NCBI GenBank assembly: GCA_014192425.1 | Contig: BJHK01000014.1 | Location: 1-64,000, forward strand | Reading direction: 5' to 3' | DNA from: Planctomycetia bacterium | Lineage (GTDB): Bacteria; Planctomycetota; Planctomycetia; Pirellulales; UBA1268 | DNA: 64,000 bases | Shown here: positions 12,668 through 25,998 of the stretch, piece by piece | Layout: every line of letters begins with the position of its first letter | Numbering within the stretch: the first letter of the stretch is position 1 | Notes under the pieces: generated by a model | Databases searched by the model: none | Seen by the model: the letters and a program-made list of their open reading frames with translations, nothing else | What the model was told of the DNA's origin: nothing | Translations under genes and position numbers: made by a program

Positions 12668-13822
12668 GTGCGATTCGTCGATCTCCCTGCCCAGTTCACC
12701 GCCCTCGAACCGGAGATCACCGCCGCGGTCATGGGTGTGCTCGCCCGCGGCGACTACATCCTCGGCCGGGCCGTGGCCGAGTTCGAGACGGCCTTCGCGG
12801 ACTACTGCGGCGCCGGCCATGCGATCGGCTGCGCCAACGGGCTCGACGGCCTGACGCTCCTCTTGCAGGCCGCGGAGATCGGCCCGGGCGACGAGGTGAT
12901 CACCCAGTGCAACTCGTTTGCCGCCACCGCCTACTCGATCACGCGGGCAGGTGCGACCCCTGTGCTCGTGGACTGTCGCGACGACGACCTGGCGATGGAT
13001 CTCGACCAGATTGAAGCCGCGATCACGCCGGCCACGCGGGCGATCGTGGGAGTGCACCTTTACGGGCGGCTGCTCGATGTCGCCCGGCTGCGGCAAGTTG
13101 CCGATGCCCACGGGCTTCTATTGTTCGAGGACGCCGCTCAGGCTCACGGAGGGATTCCGTTCAACAACGGTGGGTTTTCCGGGCCGCGACGGCGGGCGGG
13201 GGCGTTGTCCGACGGCGGTTCGTTCAGTTTCTATCCCGCCAAGAATCTTGGTGCCGCCGGCGATGGCGGGATGGTCACGACCCACCGGCTCGACCTCTCC
13301 GAACGCGTCCGGCTGGCGATCAACTACGGCCAGAGCGAGCGATATATCCATGCCGCTGCCAACGGCACCAACTCCCGGCTCGACACGATCCAGGCGGCGA
13401 TCCTGCTCGTGAAACTCGCGCATCTCGATGCGTGGAACGCCCGGCGGCGGCAGGTGGCCGAATGGTATGCGACCGCCCTCGCCGACACTGGCGTCCAGCT
13501 TCCGCCGCTGCCGACCGAGCCCGACTCGCACGTCTGGCATCTCTACACTGTGCGGGTTCCGCCCGGCTGCGATCGCGATCGTGTGCGGGCGATTCTCGCG
13601 GAGCAGGAGATCGAAACCGGCCTCCACTACCCGCGGCCGATCCATCTGCAGCCGGCCTTTGCCAGCCTGAATATCCCCCGCGGGGCCTTTCCGGTGGCCG
13701 AGTCCGCGGCCGAGCGGCTGATTTCGCTACCGATGCATCCGTTTCTTACGCGCGACGACGTGCATCGCGTGGCGGCGGCCCTCGAGACTGCGCTCGCCGC
13801 GCAGGGGGCGGCCCGACCATGA
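12668..13822 (+). CDS. DegT/DnrJ/EryC1/StrS family PLP-dependent sugar aminotransferase
   Basis: The 384-residue protein has the fold-type I aminotransferase landmarks. These are NGLDGLTLLLQAAEIGPGDEVI, the PLP-pyridine-binding Asp in FEDAAQAHGG (D155) and the Schiff-base Lys in FYPAKNLGAAGDGG (K192). The AKNLGAxGDGG form is common in enzymes that aminate 3-keto nucleotide sugars (QdtB, FdtB, WbpE/WlbC types). The next gene is a Gfo/Idh-type dehydrogenase joined by ATGA, and such pairs (WlbA/WbpB with WlbC/WbpE) oxidise C3 and then aminate it. A 3-amino sugar product is therefore likely, on an unidentified nucleotide sugar. The GTG start is supported by an AAGGAG six bases upstream. Confidence 0.92.
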   Translation: MRFVDLPAQFTALEPEITAAVMGVLARGDYILGRAVAEFETAFADYCGAGHAIGCANGLDGLTLLLQAAEIGPGDEVITQCNSFAATAYSITRAGATPVLVDCRDDDLAMDLDQIEAAITPATRAIVGVHLYGRLLDVARLRQVADAHGLLLFEDAAQAHGGIPFNNGGFSGPRRRAGALSDGGSFSFYPAKNLGAAGDGGMVTTHRLDLSERVRLAINYGQSERYIHAAANGTNSRLDTIQAAILLVKLAHLDAWNARRRQVAEWYATALADTGVQLPPLPTEPDSHVWHLYTVRVPPGCDRDRVRAILAEQEIETGLHYPRPIHLQPAFASLNIPRGAFPVAESAAERLISLPMHPFLTRDDVHRVAAALETALAAQGAARP

Positions 13823-14880
13823 CCCTCGCCAGCGATGCATCTCGATCTGATCCCGTGCGGCTCGTGCTCTGCGGCGCCGGGCACTGGGGCCCCAACATCA
13901 TCCGCGCGTTGCTTGACGACCGCCGCGTGCGGCTCGCCGCCATCGTGGAGACCGACCCGGCACGTCGGCAGGCTCTGGAATCGCGGTACGGCGTTTGTAC
14001 CTCGGCCGACCTCGAGCCGCACCTCCGCGACCCGGCGATCGACGCCGTGATCGTCTCGACGCCGGCGGCATCTCACGCATCGCTTGCCACGGCCGCACTT
14101 ACGCACGGTAAGCATGTGCTGGTTGAAAAACCGATGGCCGCCACGCACCGCGAGGCCGAAGATCTCTGCCGGCATGCCGCCCGTGCGCAGAGGATCCTGA
14201 TGGTGGGCCACGTGTTCCTGTTCAACAACGCCTTTCGGGAGATGAAGCGTCGGCTCGAGGCCACCGACTTCGGGCGGCTCCTCTATCTTTACGCCCGGCG
14301 GCTCAACCTCGGCCCCGTCCGGGCCGACGTGCACGCCGGCTGGGATCTCGCCAGCCACGACGTGTCGATGTTCCTGGCGATCAAGAAGACGCTCCCGGTG
14401 ACCGTGACCGCCTCCGGGCAGTGCATGATCCGCAATGGCATCCCCGACGTCATCTTCGCAAACCTGTTCTTTCCCGACGGCACCTGCGGCCACATCCATG
14501 CCAGTTGGCTCGACCCCCAGAAGATTCGCGACGTCGTGGCGGTCGGCGAACGCCGGATGATCGTGTTCGACGATATGTCGCTGCAGGCTCCGCTGCGGGT
14601 CTACAACCATGGCTTCGATCGGCTCGCCGCCGACGATGCGACCGCGATCGTGGACACGTTCGGCGAGTTCCGGGTGCAGCTCAAGCAGGGCGAGCTCGTC
14701 GTGCCGCCGACCGCGACCGGTCAGCCGCTGGCGGCCGAGCTCGACGAGTTTGTCTCGGCGTTGATCGCGGGGCGGCCGGTCGAAAGCGACGGCCGGTTCG
14801 GAGCGGACGTCGTGGCGGTGCTCGAAGCCATCGACCGCTCGCTGGCCGAGGATTCGCGGGCGGTGGCGGTCGCGTCATGA
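13819..14880 (+). CDS. Gfo/Idh/MocA family NAD(P)-dependent sugar dehydrogenase
   Basis: The 353-residue protein has an N-terminal Rossmann domain with GAGHWGPNIIRALL (about 19-32) and the family motif VEKPMA (E103-K104-P105). A C-terminal substrate domain (about residues 130-340) includes AGWDLASHDVSMFL. The GxWGPN variant is shared with the WlbA/WbpB group, which oxidise C3 of UDP-N-acetyl-hexosaminuronic acids. ATGA overlaps on both sides tie it to the aminotransferase upstream and the GT2 downstream. The likely role is to make the keto sugar for the aminotransferase. An N-terminal tail of about 12 residues precedes the fold. Other sugar oxidations cannot be excluded. Confidence 0.9.
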   Translation: MTLASDASRSDPVRLVLCGAGHWGPNIIRALLDDRRVRLAAIVETDPARRQALESRYGVCTSADLEPHLRDPAIDAVIVSTPAASHASLATAALTHGKHVLVEKPMAATHREAEDLCRHAARAQRILMVGHVFLFNNAFREMKRRLEATDFGRLLYLYARRLNLGPVRADVHAGWDLASHDVSMFLAIKKTLPVTVTASGQCMIRNGIPDVIFANLFFPDGTCGHIHASWLDPQKIRDVVAVGERRMIVFDDMSLQAPLRVYNHGFDRLAADDATAIVDTFGEFRVQLKQGELVVPPTATGQPLAAELDEFVSALIAGRPVESDGRFGADVVAVLEAIDRSLAEDSRAVAVAS

Positions 14881-15635
14881 CTCACGCCCGCCGCCTCCGG
14901 AGCCTGTTTTTCGCGCCAGTCTTCGACCAGTGTGAAGAGCTGCCAGCCCTGCTCGCTGCATTCCGGACAACCACGCTGCCGTGCGATGAGTTGCTGCTTG
15001 TCAACAACGGCAGCACCGACGGAAGTGCGGAGCTGATCCATACGAGCGGCTTTCCGTATCTCGATCTCCCCCGGAACCTCGGCGTCGGGGGAGCGTTCAT
15101 GGCGGCGGCCGACTACGCGATCGCGGGAGGATTCGACGTGCTCGGCGCCATCGCCGGCAACGGCAAGATGCTGCCGGCGGAGATGCATCGCGTGCTCGAC
15201 CCGGTCGCGAACGGCTCCGCCGATTACGTCACGGGGAGCCGCTACCTGCCGGGCGGAAGCTCCCCCAACCTCACCCGCTTTCGCGGGCTGGCGATCCCGG
15301 CGGTTACGCTCGCCGTGCGGCTGCTGACCGGCCGGCGCATCACCGACGCCACGTGCGGCTACCGCTGCTACCGGCTCGACATTCTGAAGCGGGCCACGTT
15401 CGACTGGCATGCCCCGTGGCTCGAGGGCTATGGCTTCGAGTACTATCTTTACGCCCACGTCCTCCAGGACCGCTCGATCCTCTCGATCGAGGTGCCGGTG
15501 ACCATGCGGTATCCACCAGCCGGTCGGCGGCACACCAAGATTCGCGCCGTCGTGGGCTGGTGGGACATGTTCAAGCCCTTCCTCGTCGCCCGATTCGATG
15601 GGCAGGGGTTCAGGACTTGCCAGTCCGCGTCATGA
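14877..15635 (+). CDS. GT2 family glycosyltransferase
   Basis: The 252-residue protein is a GT2-type domain with LLLVNNGSTDGSAELI and NLGVGGAFMAAADYAI. The usual DxD block is replaced by AIAGNGKMLPAEM. It ends in a YGFEYYLYAHVL / IEVPVTMRYPP block like that of polyprenyl-phosphate sugar synthases. No membrane span is seen. It closes the amino-sugar cassette 12668-15635 (ATGA overlap with the dehydrogenase) and probably transfers or lipid-loads the sugar made there. The missing first Asp of DxD is seen in some members of this GT2 subgroup, so it need not mean inactivity. Its last six bases overlap the convergent FkbH-like gene. Confidence 0.85.
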   Translation: MTHARRLRSLFFAPVFDQCEELPALLAAFRTTTLPCDELLLVNNGSTDGSAELIHTSGFPYLDLPRNLGVGGAFMAAADYAIAGGFDVLGAIAGNGKMLPAEMHRVLDPVANGSADYVTGSRYLPGGSSPNLTRFRGLAIPAVTLAVRLLTGRRITDATCGYRCYRLDILKRATFDWHAPWLEGYGFEYYLYAHVLQDRSILSIEVPVTMRYPPAGRRHTKIRAVVGWWDMFKPFLVARFDGQGFRTCQSAS

Positions 15636-17381
15636 CTCCACGCGCACTGCGATCGCCGGCGGCACCGGAATGTCTGCTAGCTGCAATGGCGTGCCAGAAG
15701 CCCAGCCAATTCCCTCCAGAAAGATCGACGCGGGCGCATTTCTCGATGTCGGCTCGAAAACAAATTCGACTCGATGTGGCGGCGACGCGGGCCATATCGA
15801 TGCGATGCTGCCGATGATAGCGTTTTCCACGCATCGCCCCAAGACACGACAGCTCAGCACAAAGTTCGTGATGACGGCCGTGTCTGCCATTCGTTCAGCG
15901 ACTATCGCACCTACGACACCCGACGATCCGAAGCAGTCTTCGTACTCAACGCTGACGAGGGCCGACCCTAGGTCTTGGAGCCTTGCCAAGTCAGCTTCCG
16001 AAAACCGGCGTCCGGCCATATTGAACTGCGTCGTACGTTCAAACAACTGCGACAAACGGCCGCGCTGGACCGGCTCGGCCAGTCGCAGCGTGAGCCGGAT
16101 TTGCAGTGCTTTCAAGAAATTGTCGAGCGTCGATGATGTCGCGGCCAGTTCCCTCCGCCGGCCTGCATTTCGGTAATCCAAGCGACGGATCCGATCTCCT
16201 TCGGTCAAGTATGGACGGTCGAATCCCTCGATTGCAGCGAGTCTTGAAGGGTACTCACTCAGGCGCTCTGGCACCTGTACCACTTCGACCTCCGGACACC
16301 TTTGCCGCAGCAATAAACACTCGGCGGCAGAGTCGTCGAGCATGACCATCCGATCCAAGCCAACGCCGAGTTCCTCCGCGATCGACCTCAGGTTTTCGTC
16401 TTTCGTGAGCCAATTCGCACGAATCGCGGCGAAATCCTCCTCGTCGAGCGGAAATTCCCTGTCTCGCAGGATGGCCGTCACATCCTCCTGCTGATTCTTG
16501 CTGTTGATGGCGAGAATGATGCCGGTGGTAGCCAATGCCTTCAATTGCGCGAGGATATGCCAATAGACCCGGCCGGCATAGCTATCCGGCTTGTATATCA
16601 CCCCAGACGGCCCCATCTCACCCAACACTCCCTGCCAGAGCGTGCCATCGAGATCAACGACCAACGCCTTCTTGCGTGGAAGACACGTCGCCACAATCTG
16701 TCGAGCCAGAGCGTGAGCCACACGGTTCGCTCCCTCGGCAGAAAACGGCGAATCATCAGACAGATAATGCTTGGGGCTCACACAGCGGTCGTGCCCCCAT
16801 CTGGCCAGGACGTCATGGAAAGGCAAGACTTCGAGTCGCCGGGAATGGCATTCCGCCAGGAGCGAGGCATTGGCGTCGAGCAGAAACGAATTCCGTCCGA
16901 AGCTACCGACGTGGGCGTATGTATCGTTGACGCCCGGTAATGAGCTGAACAAAGACGATACGATGACATGATCGCCCGTACGCGATCGATAGGTGTCGCA
17001 CAGTTCCAACCTTGCCCGTAGCCGTGTGAAAAACTGCTGCCGCTGCTCCTCGTTTGGCTCCACGGCTTGGGAGCCTACCAGCTTCTCAAAGTCACTGAGC
17101 ACGACCACATTCGTCGCGGACGCCTGGCGATCATCACGGTCGGCGGTCATCAGCCAGCCCTCTATCTGGTAGGGCGGAAGTTGGACGATATCGGGGTCAA
17201 GCCCGCAATTCCGGCAGAAGTATCGAAGCGGCTCGACGATTCCCGCGACAGTGCATTCCGCCAGAAGCTTGACGCCCACACGCAGCCCGCTTGGGCGATA
17301 CTTCCCGACTCGGCTCTCGTAGTCGGCGTGAAAAGCCGCAATCGCCGCGATTGAAGGGTTCGTGGTGGGATCTTCAGTCAT
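15630..17381 (-). CDS. FkbH-like HAD-superfamily protein (subfamily IIIC)
   Basis: The 583-residue protein has the FkbH layout: an N-terminal part (1-235) resembling the SGNH-like region of the family, a HAD domain (about 238-385) and a C-terminal GNAT-like part. The HAD domain carries VVDLDGTLWQGVLGE (D243, D245), AINSKNQQ (S294), K327 in WLTKDE and MLDDS (D349, D350). Characterised FkbH proteins take D-1,3-bisphosphoglycerate, remove the phosphate and load the glyceryl group onto an acyl carrier protein. An ACP gene lies three genes upstream in the same operon, with a beta-helix acyltransferase between, so glyceryl-ACP formation for glycan decoration is a good hypothesis. It is joined to the VOC gene by ATGA. 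The base composition is visibly less GC-rich than neighbouring blocks. Confidence 0.85.
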   Translation of the reverse strand: MTEDPTTNPSIAAIAAFHADYESRVGKYRPSGLRVGVKLLAECTVAGIVEPLRYFCRNCGLDPDIVQLPPYQIEGWLMTADRDDRQASATNVVVLSDFEKLVGSQAVEPNEEQRQQFFTRLRARLELCDTYRSRTGDHVIVSSLFSSLPGVNDTYAHVGSFGRNSFLLDANASLLAECHSRRLEVLPFHDVLARWGHDRCVSPKHYLSDDSPFSAEGANRVAHALARQIVATCLPRKKALVVDLDGTLWQGVLGEMGPSGVIYKPDSYAGRVYWHILAQLKALATTGIILAINSKNQQEDVTAILRDREFPLDEEDFAAIRANWLTKDENLRSIAEELGVGLDRMVMLDDSAAECLLLRQRCPEVEVVQVPERLSEYPSRLAAIEGFDRPYLTEGDRIRRLDYRNAGRRRELAATSSTLDNFLKALQIRLTLRLAEPVQRGRLSQLFERTTQFNMAGRRFSEADLARLQDLGSALVSVEYEDCFGSSGVVGAIVAERMADTAVITNFVLSCRVLGRCVENAIIGSIASIWPASPPHRVEFVFEPTSRNAPASIFLEGIGWASGTPLQLADIPVPPAIAVRVES

Positions 17382-17842
17382 GGCCGCGCATCATTGGTGC
17401 GAGATGGGAGAGGTTCGGCCTCAAGCAACTCGATAAGCCCGGCAGCCGGATGGTGTAAGAACTGTATCTGCCGACCGCAGAACGCCGTAGCCCGTAGTGC
17501 CTGGCCAACTCTGCGAAAGCCGTTTCGCTCAAGTGTCTCGATTGCTACGTGCAAGGACGGTACTTCGAAGCAACTGTGGTAGAGCCCCACTCCACGCTGG
17601 ATAAGCAGGTCGGAAACTGCGCTATCGGTTCGAGTCGGCGCCACGAGTTCGAGCATGGGAGCCAACTTCGCGCACGTGAGAAACCGCAGCCGAACTCCAT
17701 ACTGCTCCTCGAGCGCATCCGGCATCATGGGATCGGGCGAGAAGCCCAGAACCCCCATGGCACGAGTCGAGGCATCGACGTCACTGACGGCCATGCCGAC
17801 GTGGTGGAAAATGAATCCTGCAGACTCAGAATGCGGATTCAT
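17378..17842 (-). CDS. VOC superfamily protein (glyoxalase / methylmalonyl-CoA epimerase-like)
   Basis: The 154-residue protein has two beta-alpha-beta-beta-beta modules. The four expected metal ligands are in place: H14 (IFHHVG), E65 (MLELVAP), H89 (YHSCFEV) and E138 (IELLEAE). The arrangement resembles methylmalonyl-CoA epimerases and other VOC enzymes acting on CoA or ACP thioesters, which would fit its place between an acyltransferase gene and an FkbH gene. The substrate is not known. The start at 17842 gives an ATGA overlap with the upstream stop; a longer upstream reading would run into the acyltransferase gene in a wrong frame. Confidence 0.82.
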   Translation of the reverse strand: MNPHSESAGFIFHHVGMAVSDVDASTRAMGVLGFSPDPMMPDALEEQYGVRLRFLTCAKLAPMLELVAPTRTDSAVSDLLIQRGVGLYHSCFEVPSLHVAIETLERNGFRRVGQALRATAFCGRQIQFLHHPAAGLIELLEAEPLPSRTNDARP

Positions 17843-18534
17843 CGCGTGTCGCTCGTGACAAAATGCGATGGGGATACCCGACCCACGGCGCGAGCAGGGT
17901 CGCCCACATGGATCATCGCCCCCAGTAGATTTCCTCGGATGACGCTGCACGCCCCGACGACTGCCTCAGCGCCGATCTCGACGCCCGGCATCGCCGTTAC
18001 GCGACCGCCAATTCGAGCGCCGTCGCCGATCGTGACGCCGGCATACCCTCGATGGACGTGTGGTCGTCGATAGTCAAGCGCCATGTCTGAAAACGATGCA
18101 AAACACGGCCCTATAAACACCAGATTGCCGATTTTCGAGTAATCAGTCAGATGGCAATGGCCATGAATGGAGCAGTTTTCCCCGATGTCGACATGATGTT
18201 CGATGGTGGAGCCTGATCCGACAGACGTGGCGGCCCCGATCGCGACATGCTCGCGGATAACGGCATGATGGCGGATTTTCACGCCTGCCCCAAGATTCAC
18301 GCTGTGGTAGATGACCGCGTGTGTGGCCACAAGCGCGTTATCGCCGACTATGGTTGGACCACGTTCCACGCCGGTGCCATAACCGATGACGGCACCCTCG
18401 TCGATTACGCAGTCTCGCCCAACGCGGGCGATTGCGGCGATTCGAACACCCGCCTTGATCGTCGTTCCCGGCCCGACATGCGCCCCTTGTTCGATGACTG
18501 CAAGCGGCGATACAAAAGCATCAGGATCGATCAC
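17839..18534 (-). CDS. left-handed beta-helix (hexapeptide repeat) acyltransferase
   Basis: With GTG at 18534 the protein has 231 residues. Nearly all of it consists of hexapeptide repeats of the [LIV]-G-x4 type (VGPGTTIKAGVRIAAIARVG, IGAATSVGSGSTIEHHVDIG, VTIGDGARIGGRVTAMPGVE). It is closest in style to NeuD/PglD-like sugar O- or N-acyltransferases. The central His of IHGHCHLTD is a candidate base. It overlaps the end of the ACP gene by 14 bases, which suggests translational coupling and that the ACP may supply the acyl donor. A longer frame exists upstream but lies antiparallel in meaning to the ACP and lacks the repeat pattern. No N-terminal Rossmann part (as in full NeuD) is present. Confidence 0.83.
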   Translation of the reverse strand: MIDPDAFVSPLAVIEQGAHVGPGTTIKAGVRIAAIARVGRDCVIDEGAVIGYGTGVERGPTIVGDNALVATHAVIYHSVNLGAGVKIRHHAVIREHVAIGAATSVGSGSTIEHHVDIGENCSIHGHCHLTDYSKIGNLVFIGPCFASFSDMALDYRRPHVHRGYAGVTIGDGARIGGRVTAMPGVEIGAEAVVGACSVIRGNLLGAMIHVGDPARAVGRVSPSHFVTSDTR

Positions 18535-18781
18535 GATGAAGTACCTGATCGAGGAAATCGCAAATCCTGCCGACGGTCGTAAGTTCGACCGCCTCGTCCG
18601 GTTCGATCTGAATGGCGAACTCCTGCTCCAACGCGGCCAGAATCGACAACTGGCACAGAGAGTCCCAGTGTACGACCGTGCCCACCCCGGAGGACGCGTC
18701 AAGACTCTTCGGGTCGGTACGAACGATCGTTGCCACAAGTGAGACGACGCGGGCGTACGCGGAGGAATCGGATGGTGGCAT
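18521..18781 (-). CDS. acyl carrier protein
   Basis: The 86-residue acidic helical protein has the phosphopantetheine attachment motif WDSLCQL (Ser41), followed by an ACP-like helix II (LSILAALEQEFAI) and the usual DEAVELTTVGRICDFL third helix. It is not the housekeeping fatty-acid ACP in style and no fatty-acid genes are nearby. The FkbH-like gene downstream makes a dedicated carrier for a glyceryl-type group the most likely role. A holo-ACP synthase must act in trans. The gene follows the frameshifted GT39-like gene with a 59-base gap. Confidence 0.88.
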   Translation of the reverse strand: MPPSDSSAYARVVSLVATIVRTDPKSLDASSGVGTVVHWDSLCQLSILAALEQEFAIQIEPDEAVELTTVGRICDFLDQVLHRDRS

Positions 18782-18840
18782 GGTACTGGTTGTCGTGAGG
18801 GCGGATCGGTCTCGGACCGTAGATTAGATGAACCTATCCT

Positions 18841-20488
18841 TCATCTGTCATCACCGTGGCACTCAAAAATGAGCCCCGCCATGAAAACCCGGGCCTCCGA
18901 TTCGGCGTCAACGGACAATTCGGAAGGTTCCCGGCTGCGACTGACGTAGACGTTTGGCGGTTTCGTGGTCACGGCGGCCTTCCAATCGCGGGCGGCCTGG
19001 GGCCCCGACACGCCCATGTGGGTGCCATATCGGGGTTCGGAAACCCGCACCCGGTACGCCGGTCGTACAGCCGCATAGTACTCCACGATCTCGGCACAGA
19101 AATTGACATTGGGAGAGAATCGAAATCGCCACTCCCGTTCTGCATCTGCGACGACGGCTTTGCGAACGAATGGACCGATCGCACTCTGGTAGGCAACGTT
19201 GTCGCTGTAGATGTAGTCCATGCGCGGCAGAAGCAGCACTGCGAATGTCCACATCACAGCTGCCGCCGCAACATCGCACCCCCCCCCCGGCGTGGGCCGC
19301 CTTGGCCCGCCACACCGTGACCGCATGATCCAAGGCGAGCCCGCCAGCGAGCAAGAAAAACAGGAAGGTGTCCACGCGGTTCCTTGCAAAGCCGAGCGAC
19401 ATCCCGATGCCGTAGTTGAGCACTACGAGGAGCAGCACGTACCCGCCGATGGTCGTCATCACAACCCGCCGCGCGGCCCCATCCGGAGCGTACATTTCCC
19501 GCACGTCCACCGCCGCCGACCATCCGATGGCAATCAGAAGACCACACGCCCCCACCACCAACGCGATCGTTCCGACATCCCCCGCGACCAGGCTGTGCAG
19601 GTACCACCATCCGAAGGATTGCTGCACGAATCGCGCCGCCGTTACGTAGTGATCGTCGAGTTTGCGGAAGAACGCAAGGATCTGCGACGCGACCTGCGCG
19701 TATGTGATCCCAACGACGGTCGAACTCGCCGACGCCGCCAGGGCGAGCTTGGCTATCACCCGAAAACCACTGGCGGCATCGGCGGGGCTTGGACTGTCGC
19801 GGCGTGACGATGTGACCACCATCACCGCGAATACCAACGCCGCCACCGTGGCGAACTGCACATTGGTTGGCAGCATTGCCACCGATAATCCGACGAGGGC
19901 CCCGAAACCCGTCGCCCCCCGCAGCGACATGCTGCCCGGCTTGCGGGCCATTTCCGCAAGCAGCCAGATGATTACCAGATTGCACGCCATCAACCCGCCA
20001 TATGCGCGGGCTTGAAAGGACAGATCCAGCGGATACCACGACAAGACAAGCGCCGCATGACAGGCGAGGCCGATTGCCGGGATTGTGAACAGGCTCCTGC
20101 ACATCCGCCACGAGATCACCACGAATGCGGTTGCGAACACGAGCGAAGGCAGTCTGATGAAGTGTTCGTGTACTCCCGCGCACGGCTGTACGACCCGCAC
20201 GAGCAACGAATTGATGACGTGGTTGTTGCTGAAAGGATAGAGCGTGAGGGCATCATGAAAGCTCTGCCCGAAGAGCTGAAACGTGATTGCTTCGTCGTGC
20301 ACGATGCCTGCGACATGCGCTTTGTAGAGCCGTACACCGATCGCACACATGGTGATGAAGGCGTAGCCTACCGTGACGAACCACGGCGACCGATCGAGTC
20401 CGGGAGATCGCTCCTGTTGCATGGTGCTGTGGCTTGCGAGCCACGACGATTGGTTTTGGACGCGAAAGATCGTCTTGGGCGGACTCAC
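18841..20488 (-). CDS. GT39-like membrane glycosyltransferase, reading frame broken at a G10 tract
   Basis: The first 400 residues read as a GT-C protein with about ten spans. The first loop carries HDEAITF and later FSNNHVINSLL, typical of bacterial dolichyl-phosphate-mannose-protein mannosyltransferase-like proteins. At ten consecutive G (coding strand; 19279-19288) the frame leaves the family sequence. The unshifted reading becomes Arg/Cys-rich junk and stops at 18908. Removing one G restores a last span (DVAAAAVMWTFAVLLLP) and a sensible 145-residue soluble tail ending at 18841, giving a 548-residue protein. The break could be a sequencing error, phase variation, or ribosomal or transcriptional slippage. 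Start is 20488, or the ATG at 20422. The gene lies in the 25998-to-15630 operon. Confidence 0.75.
19279..19288 (-). repeat. G10 homopolymer tract inside a coding region
   Basis: Ten G on the coding strand sit at the exact point where the GT39-like frame is lost. Nine G keep the protein in frame. Tracts of this length are the classic substrate for slipped-strand phase variation and are also a common assembly error. Confidence 0.85.
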
Positions 20489-20503
20489 AACGCATCCGTC
20501 AAG

Positions 20504-23287
20504 TTATGGGTTATGGGAAGCGGGCTTGCGGCCGCGAGCTGGGCCCACACGGCCGGCGAGTACAACCGCCAGGCCCGCGGCGGCCCACGCGGCGAGCGTG
20601 ATCCAGATCGCTCGCGCGTACGTGGCGGAATGATACCTGAACTCCAGCACATGCCGACCTGCGGGGAGATGGCAGGCCCGGTGGATCCGGTTCGCACGGA
20701 GCACGGGCAGCGGTGATCGGCTGCCGCCGTCGCTCGTCACCTCACACGTCCAGTCGCGGTGAAAGGCGTCGGCCAGGACGACGTATCCCGGCTGGCCAAG
20801 CTCCGCCTCCACCACCACCCGCTGCGGCTCGTCTATCGCGATCCGGCAAGACTCCGGTGACGACGTCGCCGTCGCGGCAGGCTCGGCCGCTGCCATCGTG
20901 GGCGTCGGAGGTCCATCGACAGGCTGCTCGATCACCGCACGGCTGCGGAGGTCCGGATACTGCTCGCTCGGAAAGGCGATCGACTGAATCTGCTCTTCCC
21001 ACCGGAGCCAGTCGCGTTTCGTGACGGCGGGCTCGACGATCGCATCATGAACGATCCTCACTCGCGGCAAGCCGCTTTCGTTGCGGGCCACGATCACGGC
21101 AGGCGGTTCCCCGGGCGCCTGCGGTATCGGCACCTCCGCTACGCGAAGCCGCGGCCCGAGCGGCACGCGGCCGCGATTCTCGCCCCGCAACTGCTCAGGC
21201 GACCATTCCCTCAAAAACCGGTCGGCATCGCCCGGCGGAAGGCCCTCCGTGGGAATGATGAAGAAATCGACCGCCGCGAGGTCGAAGACTCGTCTGGGCA
21301 GGGCGACGTGCCCCTGTTCGCGGGATGGTGCAGCCAGCGCCTCGATGTCGTCGAACATCGCTGTGCCGATCTCACCAAACTTTTCGCAGCCATGCAGCCA
21401 GGGAACGTTGGCCCGCAGCGTGACGCCCGTGTACCGCACGAACCGACCGATGTCGCGAGTGTCGGCCCGGCGCATGCCCGCGCCGAGCGCCACGATCCGC
21501 ATCCGTGGTGACGCGGCCGCCATCTCGGGCCGACGGCCCTGCTCGAGTTCCCGGAGGTAGTCGCTGCTTTCCACCAAGTCGCCGAAGCGACCCACGAGCA
21601 CCTCTCGGCGGGCGGCGATCGCCAGATCCGCCACCGTCATCACGCAGAGCAATGCCTGCAAAGCCTTTGACCACCCCTGGCCCCGGCGTGCGGCCAACGC
21701 CGACCACACGCACACCGCCACCACGCATGCGTGGACGCCCCCGCTGAAGACCGCCCAAAACACCTGCGCGGCCCGCGCCGGGTCGCTCCCGGCCGGCAAC
21801 ACGGCGGACGGGCCCGCAAGAACGGCGGCGCCGGCGAGCCCGATCGCCCCCGCCCCGCAGATGCCACCGATCACTGCGACCGCCCGTTGCAACCGTTCCC
21901 GCCAGACGGGCTCATCGAGCCGATTGACCAGCAAGCCCGCAAGGCAGGCCCATGCGAGGGTGAATACGGTCATCCACTTGGCCGGGTAGCGAAAGGCGGC
22001 ATATCCCGGGGCGGCGACCGAAAGCAGCCAATACACGCCGCCGACCTCGTCGCCCGCGCGATAGCCGATCGCCCGCCAATCACCGGCGAAAAGACTTCCC
22101 GCCGTGCGGACCAGGCCACTCAGCCCGAGCCCTCCCAAGGCCGCCGCCAGTGACAGCCCCGCCACGAGCAGCCAAAACCCGGCCCACGGCACCCCGCGGC
22201 CCCTCCACATGGCGAGCACCACGACCGCGGCCGCTGGCAGCAGGCCGGCATAGAGCGAGTTGGCCCAGGCCGTCGCCGTGTCGAGGCCCGCTAGCATCGC
22301 CCATCGCGCATACGGCATGCCGCTGGCGTCGGGCCAGAAACATTCCACGAGCCGCCAGGGCACGATCGAAAAGGCGTAGGTGTCGGCGTAGTGCTCGGCG
22401 GCCATGCCCGGCCTGCCGATCAGAATCTCATACCAGGTGGCGAGCGCCCGCGTTTCGGAGGGCAATGAAAAATACCTGGGGAGATCCCAGATCGAGTGCG
22501 GCGCGATATCCATGGCACGCGACGACTCACGGGTGAACTCCGCGGCGACGGCCACCTGCACGTACGAGAGCAGCGCCCCCGCCAGGCCGGCAGCTGCTAG
22601 CAGCAGACAGCTCCGCCAGCGAAACGGCCGGGCGGCAAGCCACCGCAGGCCGAGGACAAGCCCGGCGTGGTATGCGGTCTGCGGCTCACCGCACAACACG
22701 CACATCGCGAGCGACGCGGCAAGTAGGGTGAACGGGCGGATACCCGGCGCGTCGAGCAGCCGCCACCCGCCGACGATCGCCCAGGCGAGCCACGCCGGCC
22801 CCATGCCGTAGGCGGGGTTGTAGATCTGCAGAAACACGCTGCCGCCGAACCCGTACGTCAGCGCGGCGATGCACGCGGCGGGCACCGCGCAGCCCATGTC
22901 CCGAGCCAGCTGAAACGCCCCGGCCGCGGCGAGGATCAGGTGGGCCACGAGCAAGACGTTGAGCGACAGGCCATCGGGCAGCAAGAAGATCGCAAGCAGT
23001 TGGGGCGGATAGAACGCCCCGCTGTTGCCGAGCGCAGCCAACGGCTGGCCGTTGTTCAACAGGGGATTCCACAGCGGGGGCCGACCCGCCAGCCATTCCT
23101 CGCGCACCAGCTGAAACAGCGGGGGCGTATAGTGCAGCGAGTCACGATACGCAAACAGGGCATCGGGATGAAAAGCATCGAAGAGCGACACGGCCACCAC
23201 AGCTGTGATCAGCACGGCGGGAAACCACTTCCGCGCCACGAGCTTCTCGAGCGGATTGACGGCTGACTGTAACCCTTGTCGGTTCAT
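20504..23287 (-). CDS. giant YfhO-like membrane protein with C-terminal beta domain
   Basis: The 927-residue protein starts at the ATG at 23287, giving an ATGA overlap with the previous stop; the longer upstream frame is a shadow of that neighbour. Span 1 leads to LFAYRDSLHYTPPLFQLVRE (D49) and WNPLLNNGQPLAALGNSGAFYPPQ. About twelve spans follow. A long outer part contains RVFDLAAVDFFIIPTEGL and the beta domain VVLADAFHRDWTCEVTS and LPAGRHVLEFRYHSATYA, before a last span. It is paralogous along its whole length to the proteins at 9891 and 23284. The family is expected to add sugars to a surface polymer. Two adjacent, diverged copies suggest different linkages or acceptors. It is followed within 16 bases by the GT39-like gene. 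Confidence 0.82.
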   Translation of the reverse strand: MNRQGLQSAVNPLEKLVARKWFPAVLITAVVAVSLFDAFHPDALFAYRDSLHYTPPLFQLVREEWLAGRPPLWNPLLNNGQPLAALGNSGAFYPPQLLAIFLLPDGLSLNVLLVAHLILAAAGAFQLARDMGCAVPAACIAALTYGFGGSVFLQIYNPAYGMGPAWLAWAIVGGWRLLDAPGIRPFTLLAASLAMCVLCGEPQTAYHAGLVLGLRWLAARPFRWRSCLLLAAAGLAGALLSYVQVAVAAEFTRESSRAMDIAPHSIWDLPRYFSLPSETRALATWYEILIGRPGMAAEHYADTYAFSIVPWRLVECFWPDASGMPYARWAMLAGLDTATAWANSLYAGLLPAAAVVVLAMWRGRGVPWAGFWLLVAGLSLAAALGGLGLSGLVRTAGSLFAGDWRAIGYRAGDEVGGVYWLLSVAAPGYAAFRYPAKWMTVFTLAWACLAGLLVNRLDEPVWRERLQRAVAVIGGICGAGAIGLAGAAVLAGPSAVLPAGSDPARAAQVFWAVFSGGVHACVVAVCVWSALAARRGQGWSKALQALLCVMTVADLAIAARREVLVGRFGDLVESSDYLRELEQGRRPEMAAASPRMRIVALGAGMRRADTRDIGRFVRYTGVTLRANVPWLHGCEKFGEIGTAMFDDIEALAAPSREQGHVALPRRVFDLAAVDFFIIPTEGLPPGDADRFLREWSPEQLRGENRGRVPLGPRLRVAEVPIPQAPGEPPAVIVARNESGLPRVRIVHDAIVEPAVTKRDWLRWEEQIQSIAFPSEQYPDLRSRAVIEQPVDGPPTPTMAAAEPAATATSSPESCRIAIDEPQRVVVEAELGQPGYVVLADAFHRDWTCEVTSDGGSRSPLPVLRANRIHRACHLPAGRHVLEFRYHSATYARAIWITLAAWAAAGLAVVLAGRVGPARGRKPASHNP

Positions 23288-25998
23288 CGCCGCCCCCCTC
23301 CAACGACAGACCGGGCGACCGCCGCCCCCGCCACCCCCCACGCCACGAGCGTCACCGGCCACGTCCAGGCGAACGTCCGCGAATGATGGCGAAACTCGAG
23401 CACATGCCGCCCGGTGGGCAGGCTCACCGCGCGATGGATCCGATTCGCCCGCCGGATCGGCTCGGCCCGCGGCGGCCCGCCGTCGCTCGACACGGTGACG
23501 TGCCAATCGGGATGCCAGCTGTCGGCGAGCACGACGAGGCCGGGCGACACAAGATCGGCCTCCAGCACCACGCGATCGGCCGCGTCACTCACGAGACGGC
23601 AGGCATCGGCGGTCGGGATCGTCCGCGAGTTTCCCTCGGGAAACAGTTCCCTGGCCGTCGCCCCCTCGACCAACACGCCGTGAAACAGATCGGGCACCGC
23701 GGGATTCGGAAACGCAATCCGCTTCAGAAAATCGATCCACGGCCCCCAGTCGCGCTTGCTCACGGCGGGCACGGCCGCCGCCTGCCGCACGATCCGCGCC
23801 CGCGGCAACGCCGAAAGATTGCGGACCACGACCATGAGCGGCGGGGCCCCCTCGGAATCGCGGGCGGTGTTGACGATCGGCAAAGGCTCGCCGCGGGGCG
23901 CCGGCCCGGAAAACCCGCCAGCTTTCTGCTCAGCGGACCAGTCTTCGAGGAGCGTTGCCGACGCCCGAAGTTCCGGCTCGCCGGCCCCGACGGCGAAGTA
24001 TTCCACGCTGCAAAGATCGAACGTCCGCCGCGGCATGATCTCGGCCGCTTCTGCCCGCAGCGGGCAGATCAGCGTTTCGATGTCCTGCGGCATCGCGGTG
24101 CTCCGCTCGCCGATCTTCTCGCAGCCGCGTAGCCACGGGCCGTGGCCGACGAGCGACTCGCCGATCTCCCGCACGTATCGCGTGAGGTCGAGCGGGTCGA
24201 TCAGCAACGACTTTGGATCGACGACGGCGATCCGCATCCGGGGGGCCACGGCGGCCAGATCGGGAGCCCGCTCCGTCGCGAGTGCTTCGAGCGTGCTGCT
24301 GCCGCCCAGCAGCGTGTCGAGCCGTTCGATGAGCAGTTCTCGGCGGCCTGCGATCGCGAGATCGGCGGCGAGAATGAGCACCAGCAGCGCGGGCACCGAT
24401 CCGGCGAGCCTGCCCGTGGTGAAGACACCCTCGCGAAGCAGCAAGGCCGTTCCGACCGCGAACGCCACGGCATGCACGCCGCCTCGCATCACGGCGCCAA
24501 AGACCGACAGACGGCGGGCCTCGAGCGAGCCGCCGGGAAGCACGTTCGCCGCGCCTTGCATGACGGCCGCCACCGCGAGCCCGACCGCTACGACCGCGAC
24601 GACCCCCGCAACTCCCATTGCGATCGCCCGAGCGCGAGCCCGCACCCGCACGTCGCCGAGGCTGTCGAAGCCCATGGCAGCCAGCTGACCAAGCGCAAGC
24701 GCGAACACCGTCATCCATTTCGCGGGATATCGAAATCCCGCATAGCCGGGCAGGCCGATCGACAGCGCCCAGTAGAGCCCCCCCACCTCGTCGCCGTGGG
24801 AATAACCAAGCGTGCCGAGCTCGCCCGTCAGGATCGCAGCCGCATTCCGCACGATCCCCACGAGCCCGAGCCCCCCCATGCTGGCCACGACCGCGAGCGC
24901 GGCCGCCAGGCCCCAGGCTTTGCGAACTGGCCAGCGGGCTGCGGGCGCGAGCCATGCCGCCGCGGCGAGGGCGAGCGGCACGATGCCGGAGTAGAGCGAG
25001 TTGGCCCAGACTTCTCCATTATCAAGGCGGAGATTCGCCGCCCATCTGCCGGCGATCGTCCCCAGGGCATCGGGCCAGATGAACTCGACGAGCCGCAGGG
25101 GATGCAGTGCGAAGGCGTAGATCGCTCCGTAATGCCCGGCCGCCGCCCGCGGCCGGCCGATGAAGATGTCGTACCAGGCCGCGCGGTCGCCGATCTCCGC
25201 GCGGTGGGCGAAATACGAAGGAAGCTCCCAGATTGAATACGGGGCCAAGTCCATCGACCGCTGCGTGTCGCGGGTGAACTCGGCCGCAAGGGCCACCTGC
25301 ACGAGCGCGAGGAGCCCGCCCGCGAAGCCAGCCGCGGCCAGCAGCCCAAAGCCCTTCCACGATCTCCCGGGGAGCACGAGCCAGAAGAGCCCGAGCACGA
25401 GCCCGGCATGGTAGGCCGCCTGTGGATCGCCGCAGAAGACGCTCATGGCTAGTGCCGCCGCGAGCAGCACGAAGTCACGGGTTCCGCCCCTGGCCTGCAC
25501 GAGCCGCAGGCCCGCGTAGACAGCCCACGCGAGCCACGCGGCGCCCGCCGCATAGATCGGGTTATAGACCTGCAGGAGCACGCTCCCGCCAAACGCATAC
25601 GCGAGCCCCGCGGCCGTCGCCGCCGGCCGCGAGCCGCCCTGATCACGCGCGAGGAAATACGCCCCGGTCGCGGCGAGCGCGAGATGAAGGATGCAATACA
25701 CATTGAGCGACGTGCCGTCGGGCAGGAGCATCGTGAGGAGAATCTGCGGCGGATAAAACGCGCCCGCGCTCCCCATCCCGGCGAGCGGCTGCCCGCAGTT
25801 GGCGAGCGGATTCCAGAGCGGCACGCGGCCGGCGAGCCACTCGTCGGCGACGAGTCGATAGAGCGGCGGATAAAAATGCAGCGAGTCGCGAAAGGCGAAC
25901 ACGAGCCCCGGGCCGACCGAGCCGGCAAACAGCACCGCGACCGTGGCGAGGAGCACGATCGGAAACAACCATGGGCGGGTGGTGGAGGATGCGGCCAT
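23284..25998 (-). CDS. giant YfhO-like membrane protein with C-terminal beta domain
   Basis: The 904-residue protein is first in the long minus-strand operon. After the first span come FAFRDSLHFYPPLYRLVADE (D38) and WNPLANCGQPLAGMGSAGAFYPPQ, then about twelve spans. An outer domain contains RRTFDLCSVEYFAVGAGEPEL and the beta segment VVLADSWHPDWHVTVSSDGG. The C-terminal span is followed by a short basic tail. It is closer to the 9891 protein in the first loop (FYPPLY) than to its immediate neighbour (YTPPLF). The divergent promoter region shared with the 26106 gene is 107 bases long. The acceptor is unknown. Confidence 0.82.
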   Translation of the reverse strand: MAASSTTRPWLFPIVLLATVAVLFAGSVGPGLVFAFRDSLHFYPPLYRLVADEWLAGRVPLWNPLANCGQPLAGMGSAGAFYPPQILLTMLLPDGTSLNVYCILHLALAATGAYFLARDQGGSRPAATAAGLAYAFGGSVLLQVYNPIYAAGAAWLAWAVYAGLRLVQARGGTRDFVLLAAALAMSVFCGDPQAAYHAGLVLGLFWLVLPGRSWKGFGLLAAAGFAGGLLALVQVALAAEFTRDTQRSMDLAPYSIWELPSYFAHRAEIGDRAAWYDIFIGRPRAAAGHYGAIYAFALHPLRLVEFIWPDALGTIAGRWAANLRLDNGEVWANSLYSGIVPLALAAAAWLAPAARWPVRKAWGLAAALAVVASMGGLGLVGIVRNAAAILTGELGTLGYSHGDEVGGLYWALSIGLPGYAGFRYPAKWMTVFALALGQLAAMGFDSLGDVRVRARARAIAMGVAGVVAVVAVGLAVAAVMQGAANVLPGGSLEARRLSVFGAVMRGGVHAVAFAVGTALLLREGVFTTGRLAGSVPALLVLILAADLAIAGRRELLIERLDTLLGGSSTLEALATERAPDLAAVAPRMRIAVVDPKSLLIDPLDLTRYVREIGESLVGHGPWLRGCEKIGERSTAMPQDIETLICPLRAEAAEIMPRRTFDLCSVEYFAVGAGEPELRASATLLEDWSAEQKAGGFSGPAPRGEPLPIVNTARDSEGAPPLMVVVRNLSALPRARIVRQAAAVPAVSKRDWGPWIDFLKRIAFPNPAVPDLFHGVLVEGATARELFPEGNSRTIPTADACRLVSDAADRVVLEADLVSPGLVVLADSWHPDWHVTVSSDGGPPRAEPIRRANRIHRAVSLPTGRHVLEFRHHSRTFAWTWPVTLVAWGVAGAAVARSVVGGGRR

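Follow-up and report, generated by a model that had tools for sequence, protein, structure and literature searches.

A ten-guanine tract at the site of a reading-frame change in a GT-C glycosyltransferase gene of a planctomycete

The glycosyltransferase gene and its neighbourhood

The window, that is the whole stretch of 64,000 nucleotides of planctomycete DNA that was analysed, contains at positions 19279-19288 a run of ten C on the plus strand, which reads as ten G (G10) on the coding minus strand. The tract is spanned by a minus-strand open reading frame of 526 amino acids (20488-18908), 400 codons of which precede it. The features of the locus, with the evidence for each, are as follows.

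19289-20488, minus strand: codons 1-400 of a PMT_2/GT39-like GT-C glycosyltransferase gene, starting with GTG at 20488 or at a later in-frame ATG (open reading frame, homologues, family motifs, model fold)
19279-19288, minus strand: G10 homopolymer, site of the frame change (sequence and codon-model change point)
18841-19278, minus strand: 3' part in the frame reached if the run had nine G, comprising 145 codons plus the stop codon and encoding a hydrophobic span followed by a soluble tail (codon score, alignment to the C-terminus of the homologue L116, model confidence)
18908-19278, minus strand: end of the ten-G product, 123 residues with abundant Arg and Cys (open reading frame, composition, codon score, shuffles against L116)
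18521-18781, minus strand: acyl carrier protein, the next gene downstream (PF00550, E 1e-6)
17839-18540, minus strand: hexapeptide-repeat acyltransferase (PF00132, E 1.9e-29)
17378-17839, minus strand: glyoxalase or methylmalonyl-CoA-epimerase-like protein (PF13669, E 1.6e-12; TIGR03081 below cut-off)
15630-17381, minus strand: FkbH-domain protein (TIGR01686, 216.9 bits, above cut-off)
12668-15635, plus strand: sugar-modification genes encoding a DegT-type aminotransferase, a GFO/IDH/MocA oxidoreductase and a GT2 glycosyltransferase

The region from 16000 to 21000, which carries the FkbH, acyl carrier, acyltransferase and GT-C genes, forms a block of low GC content, with values of 0.58-0.63 at 16-21 kb versus 0.64-0.70 in the surrounding DNA. 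Positions 20504-25998 encode two adjacent and similar large membrane proteins of 1000 and 904 amino acids, neither with a Pfam match, which have in common stretches such as EWLAGR.PLWNPL.N.GQPLA and are apparently tandem duplicates. No RNA family was found in the window, and the single promoter-like and single terminator-like sites found there are at chance level.

The glycosyltransferase gene was found neither in 21 congeners nor in 11 further relatives whose genomes were reached through the neighbouring Band-7 gene. One of the latter encodes a Band-7 protein that is 99% identical, yet it lacks the glycosyltransferase gene; no copy was detected in the plasmids or GTDB contigs searched. Since the gene is missing from congeners and relatives, tract lengths cannot be compared across genomes. 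The region from 16000 to 21000 is probably an acquired accessory cluster for sugar modification or sugar acylation.

Protein family and change of frame at the tract

Neither the 400-residue part at E 1 nor the joined protein at E 0.01 matched a Pfam family, PF13231 (PMT_2) included. Among the aligned family members, 20 of 25 match PF13231. The protein was aligned by BLASTP (E 7e-9) with L080, which itself matches PF13231 at 1.2e-8, a result indicating homology to proteins that bear PMT_2, and a profile including L080 retrieved L116 at 1.7e-48. The DE, NNH, RLP and AR.Y positions show no or almost no variation across the family alignment, in which D65 is invariant and E66 nearly invariant; the two residues are candidates for the acidic catalytic motif of the first external loop. 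No sequence match was found in the PDB. The leading structure matches of the protein model are all GT-C enzymes, with Pmt1-Pmt2 (Z 23.4 over 378 residues) and ArnT (Z 18.6) joined by further matches to Pmt4, AglB, OST, AftA and EmbB. The protein is a GT-C-fold membrane glycosyltransferase related to PMT_2 (GT39 group), for which the term GT39-like, as used in the first-pass annotation, is a fair statement of relationship.

The position of the frame change was located with a codon model trained on 252 kb of the same genome, which placed the best change point between -6 and +42 nucleotides from the start of the tract. Over the approximately 122 codons 3' of the tract, the score was +11.1 log units for the frame joined by nine G and -33.8 for the ten-G frame; both sides of the tract are coding, in different frames. 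The nine-G frame begins with a hydrophobic span and ends with a stop at 18841-18843, yielding a protein of 548 amino acids with a hydropathy-predicted span at residues 402-420 and a tail of 145 residues. In contrast, the ten-G reading ends in 123 residues that include 23 Arg and 10 Cys. These results agree with the first-pass annotation, which had proposed that the tract breaks a glycosyltransferase frame, that nine G would restore a membrane span and a 145-residue tail, and that ten G give a truncated end rich in Arg and Cys.

The two alternative tails were compared with the C-terminus of L116, the closest homologue. Only 36 of 10000 self-shuffles aligned as well as the nine-G tail, versus 4021 of 10000 for the ten-G tail. 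A profile built from 14 family tails did not recognise the nine-G tail, scoring it at 0.5 bits with 142 of 1598 shuffles doing equally well. The tail has therefore diverged, and support for its homology is modest, coming from the comparison with L116 and from codon use. The tail searched by itself in 392 genomes gave chance-level matches. The YY, SR..P and terminal F..Y positions appear alike in the tails when judged by eye, an observation not counted as proof. AlphaFold models of both frames were built with the same 24 relatives; the mean pLDDT of residues 401-480, as averages of printed blocks, was approximately 67 for the joined frame versus approximately 49 for the ten-G frame. The joined protein that was folded differs from the nine-G reading at residues 404-406, the frame having been switched at a four-letter word just downstream. 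Had there been no frameshift, the ten-G end would be the natural C-terminus and the 3' frame a product of chance, as the score of the nine-G tail against the family-tail profile would allow; this reading is highly improbable in view of the codon scores, the alignment with L116 and the model confidence.

The only lesion seen in the glycosyltransferase gene is at the tract. The homologues have open frames, and no frameshift conserved among them was found. These results bear on programmed recoding, by which RNA polymerase or the ribosome would slip on the G run so that a short and a full-length protein are both produced. Both frames are open beyond the tract, and a one-base slip on the G run would join them. 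However, no homologue carries a frameshift, coding signal is absent from the ten-G tail, and known transcriptional slippage occurs mostly on A/T runs (PMC3711429); recoding is accordingly given very little credence.

Long G runs in the genome and genus, and the origin of the break

The frequency of long G runs was evaluated at the levels of window, genome and genus. Dinucleotide shuffling of the window gave 0.41 expected tract matches per window, with at least one in 25 of 100 shuffles, and from the window dinucleotides 0.25 runs of 10 or more would be expected in 64 kb and 15.7 in the genome. Inside the contigs of the genome, 7 such runs were observed versus the 15.7 expected. Tract counts at the exact lengths 9, 10 and 11 drop steeply in the genus, where 22 genomes contain 32 tracts of length 10 and 6 of length 11, length 9 being far commoner. 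The G10 tract by itself is within chance expectation for the composition of the window, and there is no surplus of long G tracts such as a genome rich in contingency loci would show. Neither enrichment of long tracts nor their concentration in surface genes was found; a lone phase-variable locus could do without both. The non-chance element is that the coding frame switches exactly at the G10 tract.

In order to compare this tract with others of the genus, 240 nucleotides were scored on each side and tracts with clear coding on both sides were retained. The frame was broken at 3 of 10 G10, 0 of 15 G9 and 0 of 5 G8 scorable coding tracts and kept at the remaining 7, 15 and 5, respectively, counts drawn from non-random subsets of tracts and, for the three breaks, small in number. 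One further G8 tract sits between opposed genes. Besides the GT-C gene, the frame-breaking G10 tracts lie in two sibling metagenome-assembled genomes (MAGs). In one, the frame of an HTTM-domain gene changes at a C10 run (L149, G002:C23:24786-24797); in the other, an ApbE-DUF2271 fusion gene is divided between two frames at a G10 (L151, G014:C104:5771-5782), the ApbE domain ending in one frame and DUF2271 starting in another at the tract. Tract breaks in the genus are not confined to glycan genes, and these sibling cases indicate that the breaks follow tract length rather than gene role. The near-finished genomes of the class contain too few coding G10 tracts for comparison.

These observations are relevant to an error of sequencing or assembly, in which case the cells would carry nine (or twelve) G and an intact enzyme. 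The genome is a MAG-like draft of 70 contigs, two contig ends consist of long impure G/C runs, suggesting that the assembly misbehaves at G homopolymers, and the G10 breaks of the two sibling MAGs fall in unrelated genes. The GT-C gene is moreover an outlier, the other scored coding G10, G9 and G8 tracts of its genome being in frame. On the other hand, a systematic error at G10 should also have broken the clearly in-frame G10 at C11:56331 of the same genome, which is intact. A consensus error is thus a possible explanation that we hold tentatively. As to the two contig ends themselves, those of C14 (L086:14833-14905) and C25 (L089:1-125), the slightly impure C/G runs measure about 46 and 94 bases, and both ends carry, just inside, the sequence CATCCACTTCTC with a similar GC-rich stretch after it; either a repeat common to the two or an artefact of assembly could account for this.

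Surface-glycan clusters are the usual location of phase-variable switches, and the GT-C gene sits in a glycan-modification cluster. True phase variation, in which the locus would be on with 9 G and off with 10 or 11 and slippage would switch a surface glycan within the population, was weighed as had been suggested by the first-pass annotation. In Neisseria, a poly-G run of at least 9 is the criterion for phase-variable loci, and pilin glycosyltransferases are among those that switch (PMC5953494). The intragenic G10 exceeds this cut-off and its length could support switching; a slip changes the frame of the gene, whose product would presumably be functional when in frame. Against this stand the single tract known in one allele and one state from a single assembled sequence, the lack of an excess of long G tracts in genome or genus, the absence of the gene from the 21 congeners and 11 further relatives, such that no conserved tract is demonstrable, and the comparable breaks in non-glycan genes. 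The suggestion consequently found no support beyond the existence of the tract, and phase variation is possible but unlikely. More doubtful still is the specific proposal that the planctomycete uses the poly-G tract to turn a GT-C glycosyltransferase from an acquired surface-sugar cluster on and off, for instance as protection from phages or grazers.

A one-base slip at the homopolymer, whether it took place in the cells or arose in the consensus sequence, accounts for all observations. The frameshift at the tract is a singleton, and in the GeneTack survey (PMC3711429) singleton frameshifts are read as indels or sequencing errors, with clustered ones considered possible cases of programmed frameshifting or phase variation. 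The preferred reading, to which we assign a probability of about 0.42, is an unselected singleton slip in the sequenced lineage that probably inactivates the GT-C enzyme and is not an evolved switch. According to this proposal, the gene encodes a GT-C membrane glycosyltransferase that belongs to a surface-sugar cluster, itself probably acquired, and slipped-strand mispairing at the ten-G run would have altered the run by one base. Translation would then exit the correct frame at codons 401-404 with loss of the last span and tail, and the enzyme would probably be inactive. The mutation would have struck a homopolymer present by chance and could in principle revert.

Significance and comparison with known systems

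No title or abstract reporting phase variation in Planctomycetes was found in a search of open-access literature. Were the break real and switching, homopolymer phase variation of surface sugars would be extended to planctomycetes. Should random slippage or an error lie behind it, the finding calls for caution, in that G10 runs would be the places where otherwise sound genes of this genus look broken, and frameshifts at G10 runs of MAGs for which reads are lacking should be called neither pseudogenes nor switches.

The locus resembles pglA, pglE and pglI of Neisseria in having, within a glycan gene, a G run of phase-variable length at which a change of one base puts the sequence out of frame. 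It differs in that one allele and one tract length are known here, and in that the genome has no overall excess of tracts. With Propionibacterium acnes it shares a GC-rich genome in which G/C runs are able to break genes. The poly-G/C tracts of that species vary slowly and along clades (PMC4746626), variation that is documented across 90 genomes, whereas the tract described here is known from one allele. As for the enzymes themselves, the window protein is too diverged for the Pfam model of PMT_2 (PF13231) and its frame is broken by the G10 near codon 401. Nevertheless, it is like the GT39-related GT-C enzymes of that family in its homologous N-terminal 400 residues with the DE, NNH, RLP and AR.Y positions, in its GT-C fold, and in a C-terminal span followed by a soluble tail.
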